The notes below the pieces were generated by a model. It made no database searches and was not told the origin of the DNA. It saw nothing but the letters and a program-made list of their open reading frames with translations. From a virus, in IMG/VR virus record IMGVR_UViG_3300049830_000090, positions 1 through 30,359 of that record: a stretch of DNA of 30,359 bases. One strand, 5' to 3'. Shown in pieces: positions 4,897-7,780 of the stretch; the stretch's first letter is position 1; every line of letters starts with the position of its first letter. The position numbers and the translations under genes are program-made.

Positions 4897-5418
4897 ATGA
4901 GTTTTTGGCAAACAAGCACCGGCGAGGCCGTGCAACAAGTTGGCTCGTTTGAGTCTGGCGGCGGCGCTTTGCAGCCTATTCCTGATGGCACTGCCGTGCT
5001 GGCCAGCGCCGAAGAAGCAAGCTGGAAGGAGTACCAAGGCGATCGTTATATCAACATCAAGTGGCGCATTGCCAAGCCGCAAGAATACGGAAACCGCGTG
5101 ATTTTCCAGAAGGTGCGCGTGGCCGATGCTGACAGCCAAAAGGCTGACCGTGCAAAACAAATGCTGGCGGCGATTTCCACCAATGCGGGCGGGGCGTTGT
5201 TTGCTGCCATGCAAAAAAGCAAGGAGCACGAGCCCAGCGACCAGAGCCTGTCAACCTTGTGCAATCGCCCGATGGTGCTCAAGCTTGGCGTGTGGGACAT
5301 GAACGGCAAGACCGGCAACCATGTCAATGCTGTGTCGCCCGCCAAGGCGCAAGCGGCTGCGCCTACGCCCAAGCCTGCGCCACAAATGCCGGTCGAAGAC
5401 GGAGACATCCCGTTCTAA
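4897..5418 (+). CDS. Single-stranded DNA-binding protein (DUF669-like)
   Basis: 173 aa. AAGGAG lies 6 bases before the ATG. The N-terminal 120 residues look like a beta-rich OB-type fold ('WKEYQGDRYINIKWRIAKP', 'NRVIFQKVRV'). A proline/alanine-rich linker is followed by an acidic tip ending 'EDGDIPF', the hallmark C-terminus of SSB proteins that recruits partner proteins. The pattern matches the DUF669-type phage SSB group. It directly follows the Sak4-like gene, a known pairing. Its stop codon TAA falls inside the 8-bp target duplication of the adjacent mobile element, so the insertion left the protein intact. Confidence 0.85.
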   Translation: MSFWQTSTGEAVQQVGSFESGGGALQPIPDGTAVLASAEEASWKEYQGDRYINIKWRIAKPQEYGNRVIFQKVRVADADSQKADRAKQMLAAISTNAGGALFAAMQKSKEHEPSDQSLSTLCNRPMVLKLGVWDMNGKTGNHVNAVSPAKAQAAAPTPKPAPQMPVEDGDIPF

Positions 5419-5422
5419 AAAG
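5415..5422 (+). repeat. Target site duplication, left copy (CTAAAAAG)
   Basis: Eight bases identical to 6800-6807, directly outside the left terminal repeat. Eight is the usual duplication length for ISL3-family transposons. It contains the SSB stop codon. Confidence 0.85.
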
Positions 5423-5446
5423 GGGTAATCGGAATAACGTGTGGAA
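5423..5446 (+). repeat. Left terminal inverted repeat of the ISL3-like element
   Basis: Starts GGGTAATCGG and ends CGTGTGGAA; 19 of 24 bases match the reverse complement of 6776-6799, with the inner nine bases identical. Confidence 0.8.
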
Positions 5447-5498
5447 TGCATGATGTTGAAGCATAATACTCAAACGGATTATCGTGTTGAAAGAATTT

Positions 5499-6185
5499 AT
5501 GAAGAAACACAAGGTTTTGTCCATTTGCACGGGTATGGGGCTCCTGGACCGGGCGTTCATGGACGCCGGGTTCGAAGTAGTGCCGGGGTGCGAAATCGAC
5601 CCTCAGAAGCGGGCGATGTACCGGGAGCTGTGTGGCGGCGAGCCCCTGGTCCACGACCTGGCGGATTTGCCCGCAGCGGTTGCTGGCCAGCGCTTCGACG
5701 GTGTGATTGGCGGTCCGTCGTGCCAATCGCACAGCAAGCTGAAAGCCATTCGAGACCCGAAGTTCCCGGACCTGACGCCCCTGGTGGACGGGCTTCTGGC
5801 CTCTGTGGAATGGACGTGGTTCAACTTCGAGAACGTCGTGCCTATCGACCTGGCCGAGGCTCATACAGCCACCAAGTGCAATGCCATGCACTTCTATCAG
5901 CCGCACCAGTCGCGTGTCCGCTGGTTCACGCATTCGCCGGATATTCAGCCCCCCAGACCTATCTACTCGGGGAATGTGGACGACCTGATGGCCTACAGCA
6001 TCGTGGCTGGTCGAATCTACGGCCCAAAGCGTGGCGCTCGCCTCCAAGGCTACCCGGACGCCTCCAAGCTGCCGTTCCCCTGCATACAGCTTCAGCACGG
6101 CTTGGCGGACGCAGTGCCGTATCCGTTGGCCTTGGCTTGGGCGCGGGCCATTCTGGAGCAACAGGAGGTTGCAGAGGCCGCTTGA
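5499..6185 (+). CDS. DNA cytosine-5 methyltransferase
   Basis: 228 aa from the ATG at 5499; a GTG at 5484 is an alternative start five codons earlier. Neither has a strong ribosome site, and MKKHKVLSICTGMG fits the family start. Motif I 'VLSICTGMGLLDRAF' binds S-adenosylmethionine. Motif IV is 'GGPSCQS' with the catalytic Cys at 75 (PSC instead of the usual PPC). Motif VI is 'FENV' at 110-113. Motif VIII resembles 'QSRVRWF', and 'GYPD' and 'HGLADAVPYPLALAWARAI' match motifs IX-X. It is shorter than typical bacterial enzymes (300-400 aa), leaving little target-recognition domain. It would methylate cytosine in phage or host DNA, plausibly against restriction. It is cargo of the ISL3-like element. 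Confidence 0.85.
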   Translation: MKKHKVLSICTGMGLLDRAFMDAGFEVVPGCEIDPQKRAMYRELCGGEPLVHDLADLPAAVAGQRFDGVIGGPSCQSHSKLKAIRDPKFPDLTPLVDGLLASVEWTWFNFENVVPIDLAEAHTATKCNAMHFYQPHQSRVRWFTHSPDIQPPRPIYSGNVDDLMAYSIVAGRIYGPKRGARLQGYPDASKLPFPCIQLQHGLADAVPYPLALAWARAILEQQEVAEAA

Positions 6186-6189
6186 CCAT

Positions 6190-6207
6190 TTCCACACGAC
6201 AATCCGG
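6190..6207 (+). repeat. Internal third copy of the terminal-repeat core
   Basis: TTCCACACG, five variable bases, then CCGG: the same layout as the right terminal repeat (6776-6793) and as the reverse complement of the left one. It lies between the methyltransferase stop and the transposase-like start at 6210, so a protein that binds the ends would also bind here. Confidence 0.65.
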
Positions 6208-6209
6208 GG

Positions 6210-6788
6210 ATGAGAGACATATTGGATATGGAAGGCTGGACGCTGACCGACAAGAGGACCGAGGGCGCCATAGAGACGTTCTCGGGGGTGTACCTGCACG
6301 AGCCCAGGGCCTGCACCAAGTGCGGCGGTATGGCGCTGTATCGGCACGGCACGAAACTGACAACCTACGCGGACGCCCCGCTGCGGGGCTTTGCGGCCAA
6401 GCTGGAGGCCACGGTGCGCCGATACCGGTGCCGGGACTGCGGGGAGACGTTCCTCCAGCCATTGGGCGGGGTTCTGGACGAGCGCAGGATGACCGAGCGC
6501 TGTGCGGAGTTCATCGCCAGGGCCTCCCTGAAGCACACCTTTGTGCATGTAGCCCGGGAAGTGGGGGTGGACGAGAAGACGGTTCGGGCCGTGGCTGCGG
6601 AGCGAATGGCCGAGCTTTCCACCCAGCACCAGCCACGCCTGCCCTGTCGGGCCGAGGACATGCACCTGGTCACACTGCCGCCAGTCACCCGAGGACAGCG
6701 CGCACGGCGCGCCCTGGTATGCGACCTGTGCGAGCCTCGTTTCAACACGGAGACGCTCAAAGCTCATCGGAAGCTTTCCACACGGTAA
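6210..6788 (+). CDS. Truncated ISL3-family transposase-like DNA-binding protein
   Basis: 192 aa from the ATG at 6210 (ATG at 6228 is an alternative). A zinc ribbon is formed by C35/C38 and C74/C77 ('CTKCGG' and 'CRDCGETF'), with 'YRHGTK' after the first pair as in the zf-ISL3 domain. Residues about 92-132 ('RMTERCAEFIARASLKHTF' then 'VAREVGVDEKTVRAV') form the ISL3-type helix-turn-helix. Full ISL3 transposases are about 400 aa and continue into an RNase H-like DDE domain. Here the protein ends soon after 'AEDMHLV', which may be the remnant of the first catalytic strand, and its stop codon lies inside the right terminal repeat. It is expected to bind the terminal repeats but not to cut DNA, so it is either a remnant or an element-encoded regulator. 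Confidence 0.75.
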   Translation: MRDILDMEGWTLTDKRTEGAIETFSGVYLHEPRACTKCGGMALYRHGTKLTTYADAPLRGFAAKLEATVRRYRCRDCGETFLQPLGGVLDERRMTERCAEFIARASLKHTFVHVAREVGVDEKTVRAVAAERMAELSTQHQPRLPCRAEDMHLVTLPPVTRGQRARRALVCDLCEPRFNTETLKAHRKLSTR

Positions 6789-6799
6789 ACCGGATACCC
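6776..6799 (-). repeat. Right terminal inverted repeat of the ISL3-like element
   Basis: Inner end TTCCACACG, outer end TACCC. 19 of 24 bases match the left repeat in inverted orientation. It includes the stop codon of the transposase-like gene. Confidence 0.8.
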
Positions 6800-6807
6800 C
6801 TAAAAAG
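6800..6807 (+). repeat. Target site duplication, right copy (CTAAAAAG)
   Basis: Identical to 5415-5422, directly outside the right terminal repeat. Confidence 0.85.
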
Positions 6808-6838
6808 AAAACCCCGCTCAGCGTGAACCGAGCGGGGT
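6808..6838 (-). terminator. GC hairpin with T-rich tail on the - strand
   Basis: Perfect 9-bp arms ACCCCGCTC (6811-6819) and GAGCGGGGT (6830-6838) around a 10-base loop. On the - strand the hairpin runs into TTTTCTTTTT, a proper intrinsic terminator tail; on the + strand there is no T-run. All genes nearby are on the + strand, so it would stop antisense transcripts, or act as an RNA-stabilising hairpin for the + transcript. The T-tail runs into the right target duplication. Confidence 0.55.
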
Positions 6839-6862
6839 AAGGCACTACCACCAGGAGCAAAA

Positions 6863-7780
6863 ATGCAAGCGAATGATAGCACGGTGCAACAAGGCACGCA
6901 AGAATGGTTTGAACAGCGCAAATTGCGCATTACCGGCTCACGAATTGGGGCAATTCTAGGTCTGTCCCCATGGCAGACACGCGCCGATGTGTTGCGCGCT
7001 ATGGTGAGGGAGCATCACGGTGCGCCGTCCGAATTCGCGGGAAACCCAGCCACAGATCACGGCAGGGCCAACGAACAACGCGCCCAACTGGCGTTCATGC
7101 GTGAAACGGGCTTGAACGTTGAAAAGTGCGGGTTTTTCCCGTACGGCGACCGCATGGGCGCAAGCCCTGACGGGCTGACAAGCGACGGCGGCGTGCTTGA
7201 AGTAAAAGTGCCTTTTGGGTTGCGCAATAACCCAAAAGCTGAGTTCAAGCCACTGGCTGAGCAGCCGCACTATGCCGTGCAAGTGCAAATGGAAATGCTC
7301 GCGGCAGAGCGTGAGCATGCTTATTTTGCGCAGTATGTTGCGCCAAAAGGCGACCCGTTTAGCGCAGATTACGTGCCGGAGCAAATCAGCATTGAGCGCG
7401 TCCAAAAAGACGAAGGCTGGATTGATCGCGTTTTGCCGGATATCAGCGCTTTTTACGATTTGCTGTTGTCAGAGCTTGACAACCCCGAGCATTTGGAGCC
7501 GCTGCGCGTGTCGATCGACACCGAGGAAGTCGCGGCCAAGCTGGCCGAACTGGATATGCTGCGCAAACGCCAGAAAGATGATGAGGCCAGCGAAAAAGCT
7601 ATTTTGGCTGATTTGGTCAAAATGGCTGATGGCAAAAACGCGTTGCTTTGTGGGCGCAAGCTGACCAAGACCAAAGACGGCGAATCCGTGGCCTATGCCA
7701 AGGCGCTGGCAGCGTTGCTGCCTGACGCTGACCTCAAGCCCTGGACAAGCCCTAAAAAGGGAAGCTGGAGGTTGACATGA
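6863..7780 (+). CDS. YqaJ-type phage recombination exonuclease
   Basis: 305 aa, AGGAG 6 bases before the ATG. It belongs to the lambda-exonuclease/YqaJ fold. Motifs: 'QGTQEWFEQRKLRITGSRIGAILG' in the opening helices, E71 in 'GRANEQRA', D103 in 'SPDGL', E113 and K115 in 'LEVK', and 'YAVQVQMEML' with the conserved glutamines. These give the D..ExK nuclease centre. It would resect double-stranded ends 5' to 3' to supply single strands for the Sak4-like annealing protein and SSB encoded just upstream. Residues about 215-250 are a charged helical stretch. It overlaps the next gene by 4 bp. The mobile element sits between it and its partner genes. Confidence 0.88.
   Translation: MQANDSTVQQGTQEWFEQRKLRITGSRIGAILGLSPWQTRADVLRAMVREHHGAPSEFAGNPATDHGRANEQRAQLAFMRETGLNVEKCGFFPYGDRMGASPDGLTSDGGVLEVKVPFGLRNNPKAEFKPLAEQPHYAVQVQMEMLAAEREHAYFAQYVAPKGDPFSADYVPEQISIERVQKDEGWIDRVLPDISAFYDLLLSELDNPEHLEPLRVSIDTEEVAAKLAELDMLRKRQKDDEASEKAILADLVKMADGKNALLCGRKLTKTKDGESVAYAKALAALLPDADLKPWTSPKKGSWRLT

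Follow-up and report, generated by a model that had tools for sequence, protein, structure and literature searches.

The element between ssb and exo

The window analysed here, a virus record of 30,359 bases from IMG/VR, encodes a primase, a Sak4-like annealing protein, a single-strand binding protein (SSB), a YqaJ exonuclease, a helicase, an amidase, a major head protein and a portal protein. A 1377-bp element lies between ssb and the exonuclease gene (exo), directly behind the ssb stop codon, and both phage genes are unbroken (Table 1). Subtracting the element and one copy of its target-site duplication (TSD) leaves an ssb-exo gap of 59 nt. Because the bases flanking the two copies of CTAAAAAG differ, the TSD is exactly 8 bp long, and the AT-rich target is as found for ISL3 elements. 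The ends, GGGTAATCGGAATAACGTGTGGAATG and the reverse complement GGGTATCCGGTTTACCGTGTGGAAAG, are matched at 20 of 26 positions, and a repeat finder gave 29-nt arms at 79%. With a non-transposition gene (5499–6185) inside its ends (5423–6799), the element has the make-up of a passenger-carrying insertion sequence (tIS). The terminal repeats, GGGTAATCGG... and GGGTATCCGG..., are related and imperfect, and start GG(G/C) as in ISL3, the end of ISPst2 being GGGTATCCGG (PMC6305408). These ends are not a product of chance, since the same ends were seen again at dozens of independent loci. Composition counts for little, because the GC fraction within the element (about 0.55–0.68) only moderately exceeds that of the flanks (0.53–0.60). 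The segment at 5423–6799 is a genuine ISL3-family transposon in the phage recombination operon. Long open frames also run across it, one of 481 aa antisense to the element (5415–6860, minus strand) and one of 461 aa in another frame of the plus strand; both were taken as artefacts of GC-rich sequence.

Table 1. Features of the element and its flanking phage genes (window coordinates; TIR, terminal inverted repeat)
Feature	Position	Strand	Basis
Host phage ssb, intact	4897–5418	+	PHROG single-strand binding protein, 1.1e-47
Left TSD copy, CTAAAAAG; includes ssb stop codon TAA (5416–5418)	5415–5422		Exact repeat at 6800–6807
ISL3-family non-autonomous cargo transposon, 1377 bp	5423–6799	+	Ends, TSD, both end blocks homologous to about 40 relatives
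Constant left-end block	5423–5491	+	First 70 bp or so are the sole part aligning to relatives upstream of the transposase gene
Outer repeat core, within left-end block	5431–5447		
-10-like box CATAAT, within left-end block	5462–5467		
Second repeat CGGATTATCGTGTTGAA, within left-end block	5475–5491		
Compact C5 cytosine DNA methyltransferase, 228 aa from ATG 5499	5499–6185	+	Pfam DNA_methylase, PHROG, motifs, fold
Internal end-repeat copy, inverted, directly before transposase start codon	6188–6205	-	
Internally deleted ISL3 transposase, 192 aa, catalytic domain missing	6210–6788	+	Domain matches, protein and DNA alignment
Deletion junction, 5-bp microhomology, about 790 bp lost relative to L002	6639–6643		Element positions 1217–1221 align on both sides of the gap
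Right TIR, overlapping 3' end of transposase ORF	6776–6799	-	
Right TSD copy, CTAAAAAG	6800–6807		Sequence
Host phage exo (YqaJ/RecE-like exonuclease), intact	6863–7780	+	Pfam YqaJ, 1.2e-20

Related loci collected in the analysis are given L-numbers here. By helicase, the window phage is closest among named phages to Alcaligenes phage CASP1 (58.8%). As proposed in the original prediction, relatives were searched for the empty site, and the operon of Sak4-like, ssb, exo and helicase genes was found without the element in L186, L187 and CASP1; L184 likewise has ssb and exo without it, as far as that contig extends. These element-free comparators are about 47–83% identical in protein, none being a near-identical sibling. 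A different insert of about 850 bp, in which no ISL3 ends were seen, lies between ssb and exo in another relative of the window phage (L183, 5529–6377), and given this insert the interval may be a hotspot for accessory genes.

The transposase is internally deleted

The second gene of the element encodes a 192-aa protein in which Zn_ribbon_ISL3 and HTH_Tnp_ISL3 domains were found. Residues 1–145, comprising the zinc ribbon and HTH, match the N-terminus of full-length phage-borne transposases, and residues 144–192 match their C-terminal zinc-finger end, the two parts being fused in frame. The deletion of about 790 bp has removed the entire DDE catalytic domain. Against a cut-off of 180 bits for the ISL3 transposase equivalog, the 192-aa protein scored 63.8 bits, while its full-length relatives scored 270–301 bits (L002, 301 bits); the matching parts of these relatives are 77–88% identical to it. 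By these scores the full-length relatives are ISL3-type DDE transposases and the window protein is a deleted member of the group. Lacking a complete transposase because the catalytic domain is deleted, the window copy is non-autonomous, and as its sequence reads it is either stranded or in need of transposase supplied in trans. The 192-aa ORF could also be a decaying remnant without function. No transposase homologue was found when the PDB was searched by sequence.

The original prediction had described an ISL3-like transposon with imperfect inverted ends, exact 8-bp flanking repeats, two genes including a C5 methyltransferase, and a GC-rich interior unlike the flanks, inserted between ssb and exo without breaking either. 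The family, the ends, the repeats, the methyltransferase and the insertion site were all borne out, the TSD even containing the ssb stop codon, and the interior is indeed richer in GC, if just moderately so. Both genes are present (5484/5499–6185 and 6210–6788), the second as the deleted transposase, and the idea of an element with a functional transposase therefore had to be given up. Neither of the two outcomes named in advance as refuting the original prediction was obtained. The earlier observation is thus real and larger than first seen, with one correction, that this copy is non-autonomous.

The methyltransferase passenger

The passenger gene may alternatively start at GTG 5484, giving 233 aa. 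Its product matches Pfam DNA_methylase (PF00145, 6.2e-08) and a PHROG DNA methyltransferase, and has C5 methyltransferase motifs I, IV (Cys), VI (ENV) and VIII; the catalytic Cys, ENV and QxRxR motifs are kept across 9 homologues. The best Foldseek matches of its AlphaFold model were M.HaeIII and M.HhaI, the model being of low confidence at residues 124–170, where the target-recognition region of this protein of just about 228 aa would lie. Judged by these features the passenger probably methylates DNA, and from the function of its family it may act against restriction. The closest homologue (L019, 83%) is in another phage and stands without convincing transposon ends, and the window gene is therefore part of the phage gene pool. 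No convincing ends were found around any of the methyltransferase relatives L019–L027, which for this reason look like standalone phage genes.

Related elements and traces of transposition

In profile searches, viral contigs yielded about 90 related loci and GTDB genomes 80. A single plan is common to the window element and about 40 relatives, most of them from phage contigs, so that the other copies whose existence the original prediction had proposed to check were found in number. Transposases at least 68% identical to L002 were seen solely in viral contigs; among species-representative genomes the best reached 53%. At the DNA level, a search of GenBank phages for the window element gave no match. 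Identical 8-bp flanks were present at 39 of the 50 loci having both ends; the ends had been found by inverted-repeat consensus without use of the TSD, and five loci cut at the left edge were omitted. The TSDs of the family are 74% AT, versus 43% in the flanks. Insertion exclusively between genes was rejected, since insertions inside ORFs of at least 100 aa, although fewer than expected (25 versus 34.6, of 41; p about 0.0002), are common. No cargo-free ISL3 copies were seen in the same clade when up to 3–3.5 kb upstream was searched and a TSD required; in all TSD-bearing elements, and likewise in 39 more distant ones, the 5' region measures 358 bp or more.

Isolated phages provided exact empty sites: K303 for the element of K256, and NF and vB_VaM_H2 for that of Seahorse. 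One 2484-bp methyltransferase element of Vibrio phages is found in two related phage types, at a different site in each, and both types have element-free siblings. The K251 g2 genome (42722 bp) exceeds those of K242 and K279 (40230 bp) by 2492 bp, i.e., 2484 + 8, with an exact empty site. The K256 and K251 g2 elements are 99.92% identical over 2500 bp aligned including the TSDs, which are GAAAAGAG and GAAAAAAG for the two sites. That K256 and K251 g2 are unrelated phages was considered and rejected, part of their genes being common at about 98%; because they share this block, the movement was recent and took place among members of a phage community, not across unrelated phages. Comparison of genomes, through the empty sites and the one element at two Vibrio phage sites, thus supports transposition.

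Further multiple copies were noted. One virus contig (IMGVR_UViG_3300048861_000085; loci L006, L030 and L018) has the same element twice, at a distance of about 4 kb, and both copies carry the same 90-aa cargo. Three near-identical copies of a family element, each with a different TSD, are found in one bacterial genome (Xenophilus sp.; L103, L105 and L106), and a MAG labelled Chloroflexota (L104) has a transposase identical to theirs. Pseudomonas phage vB_Pae_HB2107-3I (L196, 225–4231) has two tandem ISL3-type transposase genes, each with its own upstream gene (a Rha regulator; unassigned).

A constant backbone with a cargo slot

The plan of the family is a constant left end of about 70 bp, variable cargo, the transposase gene and the right end, with 358–1610 bp from left end to transposase in every delimited element. 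In 13 close pairs, whose transposase regions are about 80–95% identical in DNA, alignment is confined to two stretches, bases 1 to about 70–80 and a second one that begins at the transposase ATG or just before it and runs to the right end; the sequence between them is unrelated. Within the left block the end repeat occurs twice, at a spacing of about 44 bp, and a -10-like hexamer lies in the interval. This hexamer (at least 5/6 to TATAAT) is present in 28 of 38 elements, versus 1.2% at random cargo positions, and stands almost always at element position 40. Downstream of the second repeat, most elements have a stretch resembling a ribosome site and then the start codon of the cargo. From the position and consensus of these sequences, we infer that the left end is an element-borne promoter under transposase control.

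The inverted end-repeat copy before the transposase start codon is also present in L002–L006, L008 and L030; L007 is without it. An origin of the slot by collapse of a composite transposon was rejected, because the inner repeats (first the left type, then the right type in front of the transposase) are not oriented as in a collapsed direct pair. In L007, L011, L014 and L056 nearly the same 62-aa gene (METKPKHPGGRPKLP...) directly precedes distinct transposases, its stop overlapping the transposase start. The exact joining of cargo to the transposase start codon may be enforced by a coupling between the stop of the one and the start of the other.

The cargo repertoire

Cargo was assigned by Pfam and PHROG. 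DNA methyltransferases are the cargo in 11 elements. C5 enzymes are carried by the window element and L008, N4/N6 enzymes by L005, L009 and L038, phrog_954 methyltransferases by L003, L112 and L064, a phrog_757 methyltransferase by L033, and a D12 methyltransferase by the element of Vibrio phage K256. Other cargos are DpdA (L044), NADAR (L054), DUF5131 (L115), MazG-like (L107) and, with antirepressors also among the cargo, Rha/KilAC (L013) and Bro-N (L067); most of the remainder are without assigned function. Dam in Lysinibacillus phage LspM-01 and Rha in Pseudomonas phage HB2107-3I accompany transposases for which element ends were not found in the scan. The idea of a methyltransferase cargo thus stands and has to be widened, many different genes occupying the same slot. 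Because many of these genes have no known function, an anti-restriction role cannot be generalised to the family.

When methyltransferase cargo was mapped as a label on a transposase tree of 67 rows, 10 changes were required for 10 tips, versus a shuffled mean of 9.5. Further, L003 and L112 have cargos that are 70% identical and transposases that are 44% identical. The absence of linkage to the tree and the L003/L112 mismatch indicate that cargo moves independently of the transposase. Comparison within the family shows that unrelated cargo is carried by members whose ends and transposases are nearly identical.

Proposed mechanism and alternatives

We consider it very likely, taking the proposed mechanism together with the rest, that the window element belongs to a passenger-carrying branch of the ISL3 family that dwells in phages, and that it is a non-autonomous copy. 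The fixed plan, the 8-bp duplications at AT-rich sites and the insertion into phage genomes are shown by comparison of the relatives. In the mechanism, the left end would be a portable promoter between two transposase-binding repeats, from which cargo and transposase would be co-transcribed, under repression by the transposase's own DNA-binding domain. Cargo would be swapped between elements by recombination at the constant blocks, with phage recombinases as the natural candidate, and would be kept for its benefit to the phage, which here may be cytosine methylation that lets the genome escape restriction. The window copy would have entered behind ssb using a full-length transposase, either its own before the deletion or one acting in trans, and its catalytic domain would have been lost after or before insertion. 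It would now be mobile solely if another element provides transposase, with its methyltransferase expressible from the element or from the ssb operon.

A more specific role for the 192-aa protein is conceivable, if on balance unlikely: a catalysis-dead DNA-binding repressor that occupies the ends, prevents transposition of related elements in trans and governs the promoter of the cargo. The in-frame deletion keeps exactly the zinc ribbon, the HTH and the C-terminal zinc-binding end, and repeats resembling binding sites lie around the -10-like box and before the 192-aa gene. The N-terminal protein identity to L002 (87.6%) exceeds the DNA identity (83.8%), so most differences between L002 and the window copy are silent, which may predate the deletion. 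Against such a role, this is the single such copy found, and the deletion could simply be recent.

The many small cargo proteins of no known function could also mean that cargo is neutral, an adjacent gene having been captured and carried along with no selection for a protective function. We regard this as rather improbable, given that 11 elements carry DNA methyltransferases and others DpdA and NADAR, all in a slot for a single gene; these are raw counts, from which enrichment is not proven. Dam methylation times the transposition of Tn10 and IS50, and several methyltransferase types recur as cargo here; the enzymes might thus serve the transposon, methylating its ends or promoter and timing its transposition, rather than protecting the phage. 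This is very doubtful, as most relatives with near-identical ends have no methyltransferase, C5, N4/N6, Dam and D12 enzymes alternate so that no common target in the ends is expected, and the standalone phage homologue of the window cargo (83% identical) has no detectable element around it. Finally, that both genes are ordinary phage accessory genes acquired by illegitimate or homologous recombination, with coincidental repeats, would agree with the frequent acquisition of accessory genes between core genes and with the non-ISL3 insert of L183 at the same place, but is refuted by the exact 8-bp TSD, the family-wide TSDs, the ends conserved at dozens of loci and the exact empty sites in isolated phages, and retains almost no probability.

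Returning to the phage-dwelling ISL3 branch, the family with different passenger genes in the same slot suggests one way in which phages trade protective genes. We think it probable that the branch is phage-adapted and a general vehicle for accessory genes, combining a transposase-regulated promoter with a slot, between the fixed left end and the transposase start codon, that takes up unrelated genes, many of them DNA-modifying or anti-defence, and moving between co-occurring phages. The uptake of single accessory genes by phages, including those for anti-restriction, has so far mostly been put down to vague illegitimate recombination; a general vehicle, if that reading is true, would give a concrete mechanism for the arrival of some morons. 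Transposition has left clear traces: the ends and duplications, the exact empty sites, and the element that occupies two sites in related phages. If the anti-restriction role is true, such elements would disperse counter-defence genes through phage communities. Since siblings that have the element and siblings that lack it are available in a collection of isolated Vibrio phages, the effect of the cargo on fitness is directly measurable.

Relation to known systems

Passenger-carrying ISL3 elements are known in bacteria, so the phage group is a variant of these. ISPst2 (ISPst2a/b), of the ISL3 family, has an ArsR regulator and a permease as passengers, ends GGGTATCCGGAATTTC... and 8-bp duplications (PMC6305408). 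The phage group is like ISPst2 in family, in its ends (GGGTATCCGGAATTTCTGGTTGAT), in its 8-bp AT-rich duplications and in having passengers inside the inverted repeats, and the similarity of the window ends to the ISPst2 end GGGTATCCGG disposes of the concern, raised with the original prediction, that its repeats might resemble no ISL3-family ends. ISPst2 differs in residing on plasmids and chromosomes with bacterial-type passengers, whereas the phage group has mostly one or two short phage-type genes between the fixed left end of about 70 bp and the transposase start.

A second bacterial group is the mer elements of Bacillota, exemplified by L133 (1565–5350), an ISL3-type element with MerR and a mercuric-reductase-like protein. 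Like the phage group it has cargo 5' of the transposase, a transposase 39% identical, and an 8-bp TSD; unlike the phage group it is found in bacterial genomes and has a conserved 5' region of about 2.4 kb in many species, the gene content being taken from L133 only. L133 and about 15 similar, mostly Bacillota loci, with 5' cargo of about 2.4 kb, agree in ends and size across many genera and differ in their duplications. Another Bacillota ISL3-type element (L117, 1895–5364) carries a SacI-family restriction endonuclease and, next to it, a 296-aa gene; together they may form a restriction system borne by the transposon. The open-access literature yielded passenger-carrying ISL3 elements in bacteria (ISPst2, mer) and no phage family; within open-access papers, the phage-resident version with a single-gene slot appears undescribed.

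Among broader classes, transporter insertion sequences (tIS) are those that carry passenger genes. The phage group shares with them one transposase, two ends and an unrelated passenger gene, and differs in its residence in phages and its exchange of cargo at constant boundaries, which were not found described in the open-access literature. Phage morons are likewise single accessory genes with their own promoter, putative here, between core genes; transposon ends and target duplications are no part of their definition, whereas the family of the window element shows a transposition mechanism. Non-autonomous derivatives such as MITEs and mobile insertion cassettes also have intact ends and no functional transposase; unlike them, the window element retains the DNA-binding part of its transposase in frame together with a complete cargo gene.
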